Source: Thermosulfurimonas sp. F29 (lineage in GTDB: Bacteria; Desulfobacterota; Thermodesulfobacteria; Thermodesulfobacteriales; Thermodesulfobacteriaceae). From it: 64,000 nucleotides of DNA. The notes below the pieces were generated by a model. That model was not told the DNA's origin and searched no databases. It saw only the letters and a list, made by a program, of their open reading frames with translations. The DNA lies in assembly GCF_019688735.1 (NCBI RefSeq), contig NZ_JAIFYA010000002.1:434001-498000 (forward strand). The letters are read 5' to 3'. Both the position numbers and the translations under genes were made by a program. Positions 738-6,940 of the stretch are shown piece by piece; position 1 is the first letter of the stretch; each line of letters starts with the position of its first letter.

Positions 738-986
738 ATGAAGCTGCGTCGTCTGGCGGTGAGCGAAGAAGGTTTCGTCTTCGATCCGGAGACCGGAAAC
801 AGTTATACGGTAAACGAAACCGGACTCCGGATCCTGAGGCACCTTAAAGAGGGACTACCCCCCGAAAAGATCGTGGCGGAGCTGGTGAAGGAGTACGAGG
901 TGAGCCCCGAGGAGGCGGAAAGAGATCTCTACGAGTTTGTGGAGACCCTGAAGGGACTCGGGCTGTGGGAGGGTGAACATGGTTAA
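738..986 (+). CDS. PqqD-like RiPP recognition element (RRE) protein
   Basis: 82 residues with the PqqD fold pattern: two or three beta strands (RLAVSEEGFVFDPETGNSYTVN), then helices ending in a conserved YEFVETLKGLGL. Stand-alone PqqD-like proteins bind the leader of a ribosomally made peptide or protein and present it to a modifying enzyme. It is the first gene of the operon, has an AGGAGG site, and its last 8 bases overlap the ATP-grasp start. The likely client is the leader-like N-terminus of the decarboxylase two genes on, which is inference from that sequence and from position. Confidence 0.8.
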   Translation: MKLRRLAVSEEGFVFDPETGNSYTVNETGLRILRHLKEGLPPEKIVAELVKEYEVSPEEAERDLYEFVETLKGLGLWEGEHG

Positions 987-2007
987 GGTGGCCGTCTCAG
1001 GCATTAATGCCGTGGACAATCCGGGGCCGGGACTGGGCATCATCAAGGGACTGCGGGAGGGAAAGATCCCGGTATCCATCGTGGGGCTGGCCTACGACGC
1101 CATGGAACCGGGCGTTTACCTTACGGAACTCATAGATCGGGCCTATCTCATGCCCTACCCCTCCGAGGGCGAGGAACCCTTCCTGAATCGCCTCCTTTAC
1201 ATCAAGGAACGGGAGGGCCTGGAGGTGGTCATCCCGGCTCTCGACGCGGAGCTTCCCCTTTTCATAGATCTGGCTCCGCGACTGGCCTCTTACGGCCTCA
1301 AGACCTTTCTTCCCACCCGCAAACAGTTCCGACTGCGGGCCAAGGATCACCTCCCCGTGGTGGCCGAGGCCGTGGGCATAAAGACCCCCACCACCCTGTC
1401 GGTCTCCTCCTACGAGGAACTGGGCCGCGCCCTTTCCGGACTCCGGTTTCCGGTGATGGTCAAGGGCCTTTTTTACAGAGCCCTGCGGGCCTACACCGAG
1501 ACCGAGGCCAGGCAGCACTTCCAGACCATCGCCGCGGAATGGGGCTACCCCGTGATCCTTCAGGAGGTGGTGGAGGGCGAGGAAATGAATGTGGTGGGCG
1601 TGGGAGACGGAGAGGGTGGACACTTCGGTCTCTTGGCCATCAAAAAGCTCTGGATCACCTCCCTCGGGAAAATCTGGACCGGGGTTACGGTGACCCATCC
1701 GGGACTTCTCGCCGCCGCGGAGGAATTCGTGCGACACTTTCGCTGGCGAGGAGCCTTCGAGCTCGAGACCATCGTTTCCGGAGAGGACATTTACCTCATC
1801 GAGATCAATCCCCGCTTTCCGGCCTGGGTGTACTTCGCCGTGGGAGTGGGGATAAACCTTCCGGAAAGACTGCTCCGGGCCGCCCTGGGGCAGGAACCCG
1901 AGAGAGACTGGGAATATCCCGCGGGAAAGCTCTACATCCGCTTCACCGACGATCTGGTAACGGATCTAGAGATATTTCAGCACATGGTCACCAGGGGGGA
2001 AAGATGA
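979..2007 (+). CDS. ATP-grasp ligase associated with PqqD
   Basis: 342 residues. An N-terminal pre-ATP-grasp (PurK/CarB-like) region is followed by an ATP-grasp domain with MVKGLF (ATP-binding lysine), LQEVVEGEE and the metal-binding ELETIVSG...YLIEINPRFPAW segment. ATP-grasp enzymes activate a carboxylate as acyl phosphate and join it to an amine or thiol. ATG 979 is preferred over the in-frame GTG at 973 because GGGAGGG sits just upstream of it. The gene overlaps its neighbours by 8 bp and by ATGA, so the three proteins are probably made together. The substrate is unknown. Confidence 0.8.
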   Translation: MVKVAVSGINAVDNPGPGLGIIKGLREGKIPVSIVGLAYDAMEPGVYLTELIDRAYLMPYPSEGEEPFLNRLLYIKEREGLEVVIPALDAELPLFIDLAPRLASYGLKTFLPTRKQFRLRAKDHLPVVAEAVGIKTPTTLSVSSYEELGRALSGLRFPVMVKGLFYRALRAYTETEARQHFQTIAAEWGYPVILQEVVEGEEMNVVGVGDGEGGHFGLLAIKKLWITSLGKIWTGVTVTHPGLLAAAEEFVRHFRWRGAFELETIVSGEDIYLIEINPRFPAWVYFAVGVGINLPERLLRAALGQEPERDWEYPAGKLYIRFTDDLVTDLEIFQHMVTRGER

Positions 2008-3344
2008 AAAGAACTTATCAGAAACCCACCATCGTCAAACTCCAGGTCGGTCTCCTACGGGACAAAAAAAGCGGTCTTTCCCGGCTCCTGCGACGGGAGA
2101 TCGACGGAGTGCCGGTAAGAGATCTGGTGGAACGATTCGGGTCTCCGCTCTTCGTCTTTTCCGAAAGAAGACTGCGTCAGCAGTTTCGGCACCTGAAAAG
2201 ACTCTTCGAGGGATACTATCCCCGGGTGGAATTCAGCTGGTCTTACAAGACCAACTATCTGGACGCCATCTGCCGCATCTTTCACCAGGAGGGGGCCAGC
2301 GCGGAGGTGGTTTCGGACTTCGAATACGAAAAGGCTCGAAGGCTAGGGATGTCCGGAGACCGGATCGTTTTCAACGGACCTTACAAGCCCAAAGAAGTCC
2401 TGCGCAAAGCGGTGGAGGAGGGAGCCCGCATAAATGCGGATTCCCTGGACGAGATCCTGGATCTGGAGGAAATCGCCCGGGAGACGGGGCAAAAGATCCG
2501 TATCGGTCTCCGGGTGAACATGGACACCGGGATTTACCCCCGATGGGATCGGTTCGGTTTCAACCTGGAGTCCGGCGAGGTGCTCAATGTGGCCCGGAGG
2601 ATCGCCGCCGGAGGCCGGCTCGAGGTGGTGGGCCTTCACTGTCATCAGGGCACCTTCATCCTGGAGCCGGAGGCTTACGGTCGGGCCGCGGAAAAGCTGG
2701 TGCGTCTCGCCCGCAGGCTGGAGGAAGAGTTCGGCTGGACCATCGAGTATCTGGATCTGGGCGGAGGGTTTCCCTCCCGCAACCGTCTAAAGGGACTCTA
2801 CCTTCCTCCGGAGGTGGCGGTGCCACCGCTTTCGGAATACGCGGAGCGGATCGGCCGGGCCCTTCTGGCCTCTCTCCCCCCGGGAGACTACCCCCTCTTG
2901 ATCCTGGAGACCGGAAGGGCCCTGGTGGACGAGGCCGGCTTTCTCATCACCACCGTGCGGGCCTGCAAGCGTCTTCCGGATGGCCGGCGGGCCTATGTGC
3001 TCGACGCGGGAGTGAACCTGCTCTTCACCTCCTTCTGGTACCACTTCCGGGTGGAAATAGAGAAAGAGGTGGCCGGTCCCCCGGAGCCCTGCGTGCTCTA
3101 CGGCCCCCTGTGCATGAACATAGATGTGGTGGAGGAAAACGCCCTACTCCCTCCCCTTTCCCGGGGCACCAGGCTGATCCTGTCCCCGGTAGGAGCCTAC
3201 AATGTGACCCAGTGGATGCAGTTCATCACCTACCGACCCCGGGTGGTCCTCGTTACCGAGGAGGGAAGGGTTGAAGTGATCCGCGAGGCCGAAACCCTGG
3301 AGGACATCGTAGCCCGGGAAAGGATACCCGAACACCTGCGATGA
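2004..3344 (+). CDS. PLP-dependent decarboxylase (fold type III) with leader-peptide-like N-terminus
   Basis: 446 residues. From about residue 33 it is a diaminopimelate/ornithine-type decarboxylase: PLP lysine K82 in SWSYKTNY, HCHQGTF, LGGGFPSRN, ETGRALVDEAGFL, and the C-terminal GPLCMNIDV cysteine/aspartate motif. The extra first 32 residues are odd: they begin MKRTYQKPTIVKLQVG, a Y-x-x-P-x-I pattern close to the Y-x-x-P-x-L motif that lasso-peptide leaders present to PqqD-like RRE proteins. With a PqqD protein and an ATP-grasp ligase directly upstream, the enzyme itself may be the modified or carrier protein. Substrate specificity cannot be read from the sequence. Confidence 0.8.
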   Translation: MKRTYQKPTIVKLQVGLLRDKKSGLSRLLRREIDGVPVRDLVERFGSPLFVFSERRLRQQFRHLKRLFEGYYPRVEFSWSYKTNYLDAICRIFHQEGASAEVVSDFEYEKARRLGMSGDRIVFNGPYKPKEVLRKAVEEGARINADSLDEILDLEEIARETGQKIRIGLRVNMDTGIYPRWDRFGFNLESGEVLNVARRIAAGGRLEVVGLHCHQGTFILEPEAYGRAAEKLVRLARRLEEEFGWTIEYLDLGGGFPSRNRLKGLYLPPEVAVPPLSEYAERIGRALLASLPPGDYPLLILETGRALVDEAGFLITTVRACKRLPDGRRAYVLDAGVNLLFTSFWYHFRVEIEKEVAGPPEPCVLYGPLCMNIDVVEENALLPPLSRGTRLILSPVGAYNVTQWMQFITYRPRVVLVTEEGRVEVIREAETLEDIVARERIPEHLR

Positions 3345-5434
3345 GAGACTTAAGGCCCGTCGCAAACTCCATCCTGAACAGTTACTCCGGGGTGCTCTTT
3401 TTCTCCCGCCCGGCCGGCGGACTGGCCATCCTGCTTTTCACCCTGGTACTCAATCCCAATCTGGGGCTTTCCGCCCTGGTCTGCCTGCTCTCCGCCTACC
3501 TCTGCGCCCGCCTCCTGGGCCTTAAGGAAGACTTTCTGCGACTGGACTTCTACATATACAACCCCCTGCTGGTGGGGCTCTCCATAGGCTACTTCTTCCG
3601 GCTCGACCTCCTGAGTCTCCTCTTCCTGGTGCTCATGGGTGTCTTCACCTTCTTTCTGACCTACGGCCTTTCCTCGGCCTTCTCTTACTACCTCAGACTT
3701 CCCGTGCTGAGCCTTCCCTTCGTGATCGGAAGTCTCATCGCCACCCTGGCCTCCTACCACTATTCCAACCTGTTCGTAAAGGCCCTTTACGCCCGCAAAC
3801 TCTTCCTTTTCACCTCCCTTCCCCTGTGGCTTGACGGCTTCCTTAGGGCCCTGGGAGCGGTGTTTTTCATGCCCCATCCCCTGGTGGGGCTGGGACTCTT
3901 TCTGGTGCTTCTTCTGGCCTCTCGCATCCTGGCTTTTCTCGCTCTGGCGGGGTATCTGGCCGGAAGCCTCCTGGTCTACCTCTTCACCGGCTCCTCCGCG
4001 GAGGCCTTTTCCAACCTCGCCCACTTCAACTTTATCCTCATCGCCATGGCCCTGGGTGGGGTCTTCCTGATTCCCTCACCCAGGAGCTACCTCCTGGCGC
4101 TCATCGCCTCCGCCATGGCCGTCCCCCTCACCGAGGCCTCCCGGGCCTTCTGGGAAAGGTTCGGTCTTCCGGCCTTTGCCCTGCCCTTCAATCTAACCAC
4201 CCTGCTGGTGCTGTACGCGCTGGGGGTCTCGGGATACCGTCGTCTCACCGGTTATTATCGTGGAACCCCGGAAAGCACCCTGGATCACTACCTGACCTGG
4301 GAGAAACGGTTTCCCTCCACGGCCTGGGAAGTGGAGCTTCCGGTGAGCGGTCGCTGGACGGTGTGGCAGGGTCCGGACGGACAGTTCACCCACAAGGGGC
4401 CCTGGCGATACGCCCTCGATTTCGTGATTACCGACGAGGAGGGACGCACCCACGGCGGAGACGGAACGCGCCTTGAGGACTACTACGCCTACCGCAAGCC
4501 CGTTCTCTCCCCGGTGAGCGGGCGCGTGGTGGAGGTGGTGGACGGTCTCCCGGACGAGCCTCCGGGCTCGGCCAACCGCGAACAGCCCTGGGGCAACTAT
4601 GTAGTCATCCACGACCAGCGGGGTTTTTACGCGGTGCTGGCCCACCTGAGCCCGGGCACCGTAAAGGTAAAGAAGGGGGACTGGGTGGTGAAGGGAGCCC
4701 TCGTAGGGCTTTGCGGAAGTTCCGGCTATTCTCCGGAACCGCATCTCCACCTCCACCTTCAAACCGGGCCGGAGCTGGGGTCTCCCACCATTCCCTTCCT
4801 CTTCAGCGGCTATCTCAGGAACGGAGAGTTTCACGCCCTTTCCCTTCCCGCCGAAGGGGAAACGGTGGAACCCGCCCTCCCGGAAAAACGGCTCAAACAG
4901 AGCCTCAACCTTCTTCTGGGACAAAAATTCACCTACGAGGTACAAGGGGAGGAAGGCTCCGAGGAAATCCTCCACCTGGAGGTAAAGATGGCCCCTGACG
5001 GGACCTTTTACCTCACCGACGGAAAGGCGCGTCTTTACTTCGCCCAGCGGGGGGCGGCCTTCTGTTTCCTGAATTACGAGGGGACGAACCGTTCCCCCCT
5101 GCGCTGGTTCTTCCTGGCCGCCCCTAGGATCCCCCTGAACCTCCGCCCGGGGATCTCCTGGTCTGACCACCTTCCGCTGGAAATCCTGCTGCCTCCCCTC
5201 AAAAAAGGGCTGTATCTCTTCCTGATTTCCTTCTGGCCCTCTTTTTTGCGTCTGGAGGCCCGCTATCAGGCCCTGGGAAGATTTGACTTCCGCGGAAGGA
5301 TTATCTTTAATGATTATGAGGTGGAAACCGCTGTAAAAATCCATCCCCTGGCGGGGTTTGAGGAAGTGGTTATCCGGAGAAAAGGACGAACCCTGAGACT
5401 TAGACGGAGGGAAAACGATGAGGAGAATGCTTAG
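3341..5434 (+). CDS. Urea-transporter-like membrane domain fused to an M23-type peptidase domain
   Basis: 697 residues. Residues 1 to about 310 are a chain of hydrophobic helices with urea transporter features (NSILNSYSGVLFFSRPAGG near the start; NPLLVGLSIGYFF). Residues about 330-490 resemble an M23/LytM peptidase: WRYALDF (D360), GNYVVIHD, VLAHLSPGTVKVKKGDWV and HLHLHLQ (H468, H470, H472). The canonical first zinc-ligand histidine, four residues before the Asp, is Arg here, so peptidase activity is uncertain. The remaining 200 residues are unassigned. It starts by ATGA overlap with the decarboxylase, so it belongs to the same operon. It may export, trim or sense the product, which is inference. 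Confidence 0.8.
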   Translation: MRDLRPVANSILNSYSGVLFFSRPAGGLAILLFTLVLNPNLGLSALVCLLSAYLCARLLGLKEDFLRLDFYIYNPLLVGLSIGYFFRLDLLSLLFLVLMGVFTFFLTYGLSSAFSYYLRLPVLSLPFVIGSLIATLASYHYSNLFVKALYARKLFLFTSLPLWLDGFLRALGAVFFMPHPLVGLGLFLVLLLASRILAFLALAGYLAGSLLVYLFTGSSAEAFSNLAHFNFILIAMALGGVFLIPSPRSYLLALIASAMAVPLTEASRAFWERFGLPAFALPFNLTTLLVLYALGVSGYRRLTGYYRGTPESTLDHYLTWEKRFPSTAWEVELPVSGRWTVWQGPDGQFTHKGPWRYALDFVITDEEGRTHGGDGTRLEDYYAYRKPVLSPVSGRVVEVVDGLPDEPPGSANREQPWGNYVVIHDQRGFYAVLAHLSPGTVKVKKGDWVVKGALVGLCGSSGYSPEPHLHLHLQTGPELGSPTIPFLFSGYLRNGEFHALSLPAEGETVEPALPEKRLKQSLNLLLGQKFTYEVQGEEGSEEILHLEVKMAPDGTFYLTDGKARLYFAQRGAAFCFLNYEGTNRSPLRWFFLAAPRIPLNLRPGISWSDHLPLEILLPPLKKGLYLFLISFWPSFLRLEARYQALGRFDFRGRIIFNDYEVETAVKIHPLAGFEEVVIRRKGRTLRLRRRENDEENA

Positions 5435-6307: not shown

Positions 6308-6940
6308 GTGAGGTCTCTGGTCCGGGGAGGGCTTTTTCTCCTGGGGCTTCTGGTGTGGTGGGGCGCCCCGCTCAAGGCCCTGGACTACGAGGCCATAAAG
6401 AAGGCCTATTACGAGTCCTATCGTCTGGAGCGGGAGGGGCGCTATGCCCGGGCCCGGGAGGCCCTGCGTCCGGTCTACGAGACCTTTCCCCGGGCCTACA
6501 CGGTTAACCTCCGTCTGGGCTGGCTTTACTACCTGGAGGGACGCTATCGAAACGCCATAGAGCATTACCAGATCGCCGCGGCCGCGGCGCCGCAGGCGGT
6601 GGAACCCCTCCTGGGGCTGAGTCTTCCCTATCTGGCCCGTAAGGACTGGCGAAGGGTGGAGGAACTGATGTACCGCGTTCTCAAGATCGACTACTACAAT
6701 TATTACGGCAACCTGCGCCTGGCCCGTGCCCTCAGGGAGGAGAAAAAGTACCGCCAGGCCGAGGCGGTGTGCCGGAAGATGCTGGCCCTTTATCCCACCG
6801 ATGTGGCCTTCCTCACCGAGCTGGCCCTGACCCTGGAACTTTCCGGTCGCCACAGGGAGGCCCGCACCCTTTTCGGAGACATCCTCATCCTGGATCCCGG
6901 CAACCGGGTGGCCCGCCGATACCTCTCCGGGAATCGCTAG
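6308..6940 (+). CDS. Secreted TPR-repeat protein
   Basis: 210 residues beginning with a signal peptide (LVRGGLFLLGLLVWWGAPLKA) and containing about four tetratricopeptide-like helical repeats (for example NLRLGWLYYLEGRYRNAIEHY and LARALREEKKYRQAEAVC). The start is GTG at 6308, preceded by GGAGGGG. It lies 23 bp after the barrel gene and ends the operon. TPR proteins scaffold protein complexes; here a periplasmic partner of the barrel or the M23 domain is plausible. Confidence 0.7.
   Translation: MRSLVRGGLFLLGLLVWWGAPLKALDYEAIKKAYYESYRLEREGRYARAREALRPVYETFPRAYTVNLRLGWLYYLEGRYRNAIEHYQIAAAAAPQAVEPLLGLSLPYLARKDWRRVEELMYRVLKIDYYNYYGNLRLARALREEKKYRQAEAVCRKMLALYPTDVAFLTELALTLELSGRHREARTLFGDILILDPGNRVARRYLSGNR

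Follow-up and report, generated by a model that had tools for sequence, protein, structure and literature searches.

The whole stretch of DNA analysed (hereafter the window) covers 64,000 nucleotides of Thermosulfurimonas sp. F29, whose genome is about 2.3 Mb, and opens with a plus-strand run of six genes, the cassette, encoding a PqqD protein, an ATP-grasp ligase, a pyridoxal phosphate (PLP) decarboxylase, a urea-transporter/M23 peptidase fusion, a barrel-like protein and a tetratricopeptide repeat (TPR) protein. The PqqD protein is a recognition element (RRE) of the family that reads the leaders of ribosomally synthesized and post-translationally modified peptides (RiPPs). Comparison of relatives indicates that the client of this RRE is very probably the decarboxylase, which carries a leader-like tail at its N-terminus. 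The decarboxylase is assigned as client because the tail is specific to the decarboxylases of such cassettes, the genes co-occur, no free peptide with the tail motif was found in the genomes searched, and the solved relatives of the PqqD protein are RREs bound to leaders.

The decarboxylase begins MKRTYQKPTIVKLQVG and its N-terminal extension spans 32 residues. LysA-type relatives mostly start aligning at residues 31-34, leaving about 32 residues beyond these enzymes (MKRTYQKPTIVKLQVGLLRDKKSGLSRLLRRE), as an earlier, sequence-only reading of the window had claimed. That reading had also pointed to a YxxPxI/L motif, which is present and kept in relatives; its form in the window is YQKPTI, i.e. 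Y-x-x-P-x-I, with I and not the L of lasso leaders. In a sample of 80 loci, the best 80 of the 97 found with the ATP-grasp protein, all 75 decarboxylases adjoining the ATP-grasp gene start with Y-x-[KR]-P-x-[ILVM]. Among 32 tailed decarboxylases read separately, 31 have the motif; these proteins, like the loci of the relatives' searches, are in part the same as those of the 80 loci and so do not form an independent sample. As the remaining one reads YESPVI, the strict core of the motif is YxxPx[I/L].

The consensus of the tail is MKxxYEKPxIxKLxxGxMNKFGxSPxYxRKVRxxIDGV. An alignment of 69 sequences (68 loci and the window) has Y5 and P8 in 100%, K7 and G16 in 99%, R30 in 94% and I10 in 91%; these sequences were picked by the motif, yet this choice excluded no adjacent decarboxylase that was complete. 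The 12 loci left out (L039, L050, L052, L053, L054, L057, L069, L072, L079, L090, L102 and L103) lack PqqD or the decarboxylase, or have a cut or broken decarboxylase. K7 is replaced by R in L066 and by S in L197. The second block reads GxMNKFGxSPxYxRKVR in most relatives and GLLRDKKS... in the window; its NK is found in 66 of the 75 loci and in all 32 separately read tails, is absent from eight loci, all of the window's clade, and is NP in L098. Averaged over columns, the entropy of residues 5-16 is 1.09 bits and that of residues 17-32 is 1.49, compared with 0.98 in the enzyme body and 1.99 in residues 1-4; the first block is therefore about as conserved as the enzyme and the second less so. 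Y5 and P8 are still invariant where identity to the window decarboxylase drops to 54%. Conservation across 75 loci rules out a chance extension or a misplaced start. In the predicted model of the decarboxylase (mean model confidence, pLDDT, 89), residues 7-25 fall below 50, which is read as probable disorder, low pLDDT being by itself no proof of it. Since the tail is strongly conserved yet unplaced on its own protein in the model, it has the look of a partner-binding tag.

The sequence-only reading expected the extension to be limited to the decarboxylases of the cassette, and this holds: kept in 75/75 enzymes encoded beside the ATP-grasp gene, YxxPx[ILVM] occurs in none of 37 other decarboxylase-type matches, before or at the match start and early-aligning ones included (three of these controls, L121, L122 and L127, show no N-terminus, and L122 is a C-terminal piece of a cassette enzyme). 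The motif is also absent from 734 other open reading frames of at least 150 amino acids read from the first Met, which are stop-to-stop frames, many of them not genes. Searched against solved chains, the tail profile gives three weak matches (best E 0.51), taken as chance. The Pfam family DUF5972 appears, below its cut-off, at the start of two of four tails. A decarboxylase of a different type (L168 6942-8309, G070) has the N-terminal stretch SHYQKDQTLRLSIGHW and lies in a cluster without PqqD; it is probably unrelated. The tail on another decarboxylase type (G070/L019), with YQKDQT, was rejected as a counterpart: it lacks YxxP, and the 15 kb read around it contain neither a PqqD nor an ATP-grasp match.

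The PqqD protein matches PF05402, and its AlphaFold2 model (mean pLDDT 90) has three strands followed by three helices; by this match and this predicted fold order, it is an RRE of the PqqD family. Its closest solved sequence relatives are TbiB1 (5v1u) and TfuB1 (6jx3). Furthermore, the top six Foldseek rows for the model are lasso B1 RREs complexed with their leader, with a TM-score of 0.80 by query length against 5v1u_D. YxxPxL is described as a lasso leader motif in the accessible parts of PMC10368454 and PMC12710340, and those of the latter name YxxP and the alpha3/beta3 cleft. In the PqqD protein, L6, A7, G12, F13, F15, P17, G20, S22, D63 and F67 are conserved in at least 95% of sequences; in the model, S22 lies in beta3, D63 and F67 in alpha3, and the others elsewhere.

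No free-standing peptide with the tail motif was found by a tail profile over 47 cassette-related genomes, a search that finds this leader only and that a peptide with a different leader would escape. At its permissive limit, the profile matches in 46 of the 47 genomes, with no match in G332 and a chance-level one in G070. All strong matches are at the start of a decarboxylase or on contig-end pieces, and the next best (E=0.0067) covers the second block alone. One genome (G333) has two tails, the first on a full-length enzyme at a contig start and the second on a contig-end piece beside its ATP-grasp gene. Among 145 genomes of the phylum of G103, the only tail match is G103 itself. An overlooked free precursor peptide was therefore rejected for this leader, none being found by the tail profile in either set.

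The nearest named loci for the ATP-grasp protein are a Thermodesulfobacteriales record (96% identity) and Thermosulfurimonas and Thermodesulfatator records (89%). More widely, loci are labelled Thermodesulfobacteria, Aquificota, Desulfurobacteriaceae, Verrucomicrobia, Planctomycetes, Gemmatimonadetes, Kapabacteria, cyanobacteria, Thiotrichaceae and others, some labels of assembled genomes being plainly doubtful (one is Klebsiella). The ATP-grasp gene is adjoined by the decarboxylase gene in 75 of the 80 loci (two of the 80, L054 and L055, being from one genome) and by the PqqD gene in 77. The three loci without a counted PqqD are L079 and L102, in which the match starts at most 16 bases from the locus start, and L103, which has none. 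As for the five loci without an adjacent decarboxylase, the genomes of L050, L052 and L072 carry a tailed decarboxylase elsewhere, that of L090 keeps a piece of the tail where a contig ends, and a tailed decarboxylase is missing from the genome of L103.

Broader samples give the same picture of co-occurrence. Among 99 relatives, the tailed decarboxylase (at least 46% identity) and the ATP-grasp protein are present in the same 18 genomes, and PqqD in those 18, with a weak partial match in G078. The order to which G099 belongs, labelled Aquificales by the record of L050, gives 112 genomes, of which 23 have a full or near-full tailed decarboxylase, 25 the ATP-grasp protein (these 23 together with G332 and G355) and 26 PqqD (these 25 together with G338). 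Here, the ATP-grasp match of G332, for which no decarboxylase is counted, stops two bases before the contig end, and the PqqD gene of G338, the only one of the three found there, starts eight bases from a contig end. In G355, the ATP-grasp gene is broken up over several frames in the interior of a contig, and all that was seen of the decarboxylase is a tail piece 129 bases from the end of another contig. L206 (G355:C63:15000-17000) shows this fragmented ATP-grasp gene beside a PqqD frame and is probably a decaying cassette. Decarboxylase and ATP-grasp genes lie on different contigs and are both kept in five genomes (G099, G100, G354, G356 and G357), PqqD being on a third contig in G356. Among 291 genomes of a cyanobacterial class, in counts covering the ATP-grasp protein and the decarboxylase, eight have the former at E<=1e-40 and seven of these eight have an adjacent tailed decarboxylase. 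The ATP-grasp protein has no match in a plasmid collection. Two loci show variant arrangements. A divergent cassette (L167 1392-4769, G059) has two tandem ATP-grasp genes 5' of the tailed decarboxylase gene, and its PqqD is longer by an additional region at the N-terminus; L044 (167-917) has a second, partial PqqD/ATP-grasp pair upstream of a full cassette, which suggests a local duplication.

Both enzymes look active, as judged from the conservation of their catalytic-type residues. The ATP-grasp protein has EINPRF at residues 275-280, and E261, E263, E275, N277 and R279 are conserved in at least 95% of 80 relatives; this Glu/Asn motif is presumably metal-binding. By its family match and this motif, the protein is an ATP-grasp enzyme at the level of its sequence; its nearest solved relatives are 2pn1, CarB and PylC. 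In the decarboxylase, 39 sequences show no variation at K82, E302, C370 and Y399, and K82 aligns with the PLP lysine of FigC. The nearest solved structure is an N-citrylornithine decarboxylase (7kh2). The enzyme scores 228.8 bits against NCBIfam lysA (cut-off 297.9) and has CMNID where three LysA sequences have CE[ST]GD, C370 being invariant and M371, N372, I373 and D374 conserved in at least 90%; a separate LysA-like match exists in the genome (G000:C1:586151). The sub-cut-off score, the missing motif for diaminopimelate (DAP) and this separate match rule out a housekeeping LysA. An N-citrylornithine decarboxylase (FslC) was rejected as well, on a score of 203.3 bits for a cut-off of 500 and on the replacement of the citrate-contacting Arg and His. 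Indeed, M355, H357 and R387 of FigC are given as contacts of the docked ligand in the accessible part of PMC7857480, and they align with M371, I373 and Q403 in the cassette enzyme (the numbering of the FigC chain is 19 above that of the paper). As these specificity positions differ from those of LysA and partly match those of FigC, the probable substrate is an amino acid with an N-acyl group or some other conjugated group, and not a citryl one. Since the specificity residues are conserved, the cassette may make and export one conserved compound.

The cassette would thus be a small-molecule pathway, in which the ATP-grasp ligase would join a carboxylic acid to an amino acid and the FslC/FigC-like PLP decarboxylase would decarboxylate the conjugate. 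PqqD, a RiPP-type leader reader, would clamp the YxxPxI tail and bring the decarboxylase to the ATP-grasp enzyme. Both reactions would then take place within one complex, and the product or a derivative would exit via the urea-transporter/M23 protein and the barrel/TPR pair. From sequence comparison, we infer the binding of PqqD to the tail, the complex, the order of the steps, the nature of the substrate and the export. Taken as a whole, the reading in which PqqD clamps the tail and couples the two reactions in one complex is judged slightly more probable than improbable, and a docking tag is favoured over a covalent carrier. The sequence-only reading had proposed that the RRE docks on the enzyme, which is well supported by comparison, and that the ATP-grasp protein modifies the tail or uses it as a carrier, which gained no direct support: K7 varies, NK is missing in eight of 75 loci and is NP in L098, and PqqD distances give no positive signal.

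Several observations weigh against docking. The most conserved residues of PqqD are shared between the strands and the supposed cleft, so that conservation fails to single out the cleft. A partial Mantel test on 66 loci (the 68 aligned minus L047 and L084) gives -0.28 for PqqD and the tail when controlling for the enzyme body, with no positive signal; coevolution of the tail and PqqD was rejected, nothing on the PqqD side being positive. Docking alone also leaves the conservation of the second block (NKFG) unexplained. Furthermore, the cyanobacterial genome G101 (L103 5947-7023) has the ATP-grasp gene with no decarboxylase in the genome and no adjacent PqqD, G030 (L015, G030:C1:1278465-1279485) has an ATP-grasp gene split into two frames with the decarboxylase and neighbours intact, and G355 looks decayed; the breaks in G030 and G355 may be sequencing errors or decay. 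Finally, genes four to six are tied to the first three by neighbourhood alone.

A rival explanation, the one nearest to the sequence-only reading, gives the tail a covalent role. A PqqD-guided ATP-grasp enzyme could attach an amino acid to the tail, and the decarboxylase could act on the substrate tethered to its own tail or to that of its dimer partner, which the M23 peptidase may then release. This carrier model, regarded as possible and rather unlikely, draws on the leader-plus-core look of the tail (YxxPxI, then GxMNKFG), whose NK is kept as widely as described above, and on the weak resemblance of the ATP-grasp protein to PylC. It also has precedents among decarboxylases of the alanine-racemase fold that act on conjugates, as the accessible part of PMC8503589 reports for BtrK on a glutamate residue (butirosin) and for MccE on microcin C; 7ru7 is named an L-glutamyl-[BtrI acyl-carrier protein] decarboxylase. 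The partial correlation between tail and ATP-grasp protein is 0.17-0.18, a value that 1-3 of 300 permutations attained and that is confined to the first block and to two of 18 tests; because of shared ancestry, this correlation, like that of the tail with PqqD, is weak evidence. However, no side chain is both universal and a credible acceptor: natural variation rules out K7 (R or S in two loci) and K20, lost in the window's clade (eight loci) and in L098 where the partner genes are present, and Y5 would, by analogy, be occupied by the contact with the RRE. The N-terminal amine is a possible attachment site. A covalent or carrier role is thus unproven and somewhat disfavoured. In its fuller form, slightly more doubtful still, the decarboxylase would be its own RiPP-like carrier, the ATP-grasp enzyme charging the PqqD-presented tail with an amino acid at the N-terminus or at a lineage-specific residue; decarboxylation in cis or across the dimer, release by M23 and export through the urea-channel fold are included in that same doubtful estimate. 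If true, this would be a carrier-protein-like assembly without a carrier protein, made from RiPP parts.

The very low model confidence of the tail would also suit a regulatory or targeting element, e.g. an autoinhibitory lid relieved by PqqD, with the ATP-grasp enzyme outside the complex. As the genes of PqqD and the ATP-grasp protein almost never occur apart, the data cannot tell their roles from each other. Nevertheless, the near-strict co-occurrence of the ATP-grasp protein with the tailed decarboxylase, together with the scaffolding of modifying enzymes by discrete RREs described in the accessible part of PMC7470986, makes this improbable. It is highly improbable that the tail is a functionless remnant inherited from a fused RiPP precursor and conserved through the spread of the cassette: the patchy distribution (eight of 291 genomes of the cyanobacterial class) suggests horizontal transfer, but Y5 and P8 are invariant at 54% identity, whereas a neutral tail would probably have been lost.

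The layout of the cassette is given in the table below. The overlaps of 8 bases between the PqqD and ATP-grasp genes and of 4 bases between the ATP-grasp and decarboxylase genes, together with the family matches, agree with the three overlapping genes of the sequence-only reading. The decarboxylase and urea-transporter/M23 genes overlap by 4 bases as well, and a short gap separates the barrel-like gene from the TPR gene; as neighbouring genes overlap, the run suggests a single transcript. The ATP-grasp gene could alternatively start at a GTG at 973. For the third gene, the longest mechanical open reading frame begins at 1539, the start at 2004 being chosen from the ATGA overlap and from relatives.

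Table. Features of the cassette in the window
Feature	Coordinates	Strand	Evidence
PqqD-type RRE, 82 aa	738..986	+	PF05402 E=1e-16
ATP-grasp carboxylate-amine ligase, 342 aa	979..2007	+	PF15632, PF02655 above cut-offs
PLP (alanine-racemase fold) decarboxylase, 446 aa	2004..3344	+	PF02784, PF00278
Leader-like N-terminal extension of the decarboxylase, residues 1-33	2004..2102	+	Conserved in 39 sequences
YQKPTI recognition-like motif, decarboxylase residues 5-10	2016..2033	+	Alignment of 69 sequences
Second conserved block of the tail, residues 16-30	2049..2093	+	NK in 66/75 loci
Urea-transporter-like membrane domain fused to M23 peptidase	3341..5434	+	PF03253 E=7e-62, PF01551 E=1e-12
Predicted secreted, probably outer-membrane barrel protein, 288 aa	5418..6284	+	No Pfam or NCBIfam match
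TPR protein, 210 aa, signal-like N-terminus, GTG start	6308..6940	+	TPR families

The conserved cassette is larger than the sequence-only reading listed, three further genes usually lying 3' of the decarboxylase gene. A urea-transporter/M23 match is found somewhere in 70 of the 80 loci; H351, D360, H468 and H470, which we take to be M23-type residues, are conserved in at least 95% of 64 relatives. An iterated profile of the barrel-like protein, which probably has a signal and a barrel as far as its sequence tells, matches in 55 of 119 loci, 52 of them among the 80-locus set (L031-L110), many loci ending before the position of this gene. TPR profile matches occur in 61 of the 119 loci and include some proteins that are evidently different TPR proteins. 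Family matches of the TPR protein include the TPR models of MamA, PgaA and Slam, none of which reaches its cut-off. In three of the five genomes with split cassettes (G100, G357 and G354), the barrel and TPR genes are near the decarboxylase gene; the two profiles are unmatched in the 14 kb read of G356, and the contig of G099 ends there.

In genome mining, an RRE serves to flag ribosomal peptide natural products, and a short precursor is sought nearby. In this cassette, which recurs under the labels of very different bacteria, the sole ligand found to carry the motif is a complete metabolic enzyme. This suggests a new use of the RRE, a reader now handling an enzyme rather than a peptide. If the binding is true, RREs would be general tail readers able to organise ordinary metabolism, and orphan PqqD genes deserve a recheck for clients among neighbouring enzymes. 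No description of PqqD together with an ATP-grasp protein and such a decarboxylase was found in the open-licence literature, among the matches listed, a scope outside which most subscription journals fall. The cassette is likewise absent from the accessible parts of PMC7470986 (RRE-Finder), PMC8939145 (a graspetide survey), PMC12710340, PMC6511847, PMC10352776, PMC4431377, PMC2922099, PMC5067487, PMC10368454, PMC8503589 and PMC7857480.

Among known systems, the lasso B1 RREs (TbiB1, 5v1u/5v1v; TfuB1, 6jx3) resemble the PqqD protein in sequence, fold and a YxxPx[I/L] ligand motif near the N-terminus. In contrast to lasso systems, the motif of the cassette sits on a 446-aa enzyme, and no precursor peptide, leader protease or lasso cyclase is found among the six genes with Pfam and NCBIfam; neither a transglutaminase-like protease nor an asparagine-synthetase-like cyclase is present among these six genes, the only part of the genomes searched for them. 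The PqqD-PqqE-PqqA system of pyrroloquinoline quinone (PQQ) biosynthesis differs in that the six genes include no radical SAM enzyme, and the window PqqD scores 16.7 bits against PQQ_PqqD, below the cut-off of 46. For the HPr-rel-A PqqD family (TIGR04353, cut-off 35), the window PqqD scores 37.6 bits and those of L062 and L105 41.4 and 28.9 (below); no kinase family is matched among the six genes with Pfam and NCBIfam, and the HPr-rel-A name is probably a misleading false carry-over for the window PqqD.

In butirosin biosynthesis, the BtrJ ATP-grasp enzyme, the BtrI carrier protein and the BtrK decarboxylase act in a joint scheme. The cassette shares with it an ATP-grasp ligase and an alanine-racemase-fold decarboxylase, of which BtrK is a structural neighbour, but has no acyl carrier protein among its six genes (Pfam, NCBIfam) and has an RRE and a leader-like tail instead. 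FigC/FslC (7kh2) is the closest solved relative of the decarboxylase, with the Cys-Met and Asn-Gly-Pro-Tyr-Lys motifs common to both. However, FigC has CMQHD, and R387 and H357, which contact citrate in its docking model, correspond to Gln403 and Ile373; the comparison covers the FigC chain from its residue 23 onward. Finally, the borosins, as described in the accessible part of PMC7878506, consist of a methyltransferase fused to its own core peptide, and resemble the cassette in that the enzyme polypeptide is itself the RiPP-type substrate, as the decarboxylase may be. The borosin peptide is C-terminal and self-modified, whereas the tag of the cassette, known from sequence alone, is N-terminal.

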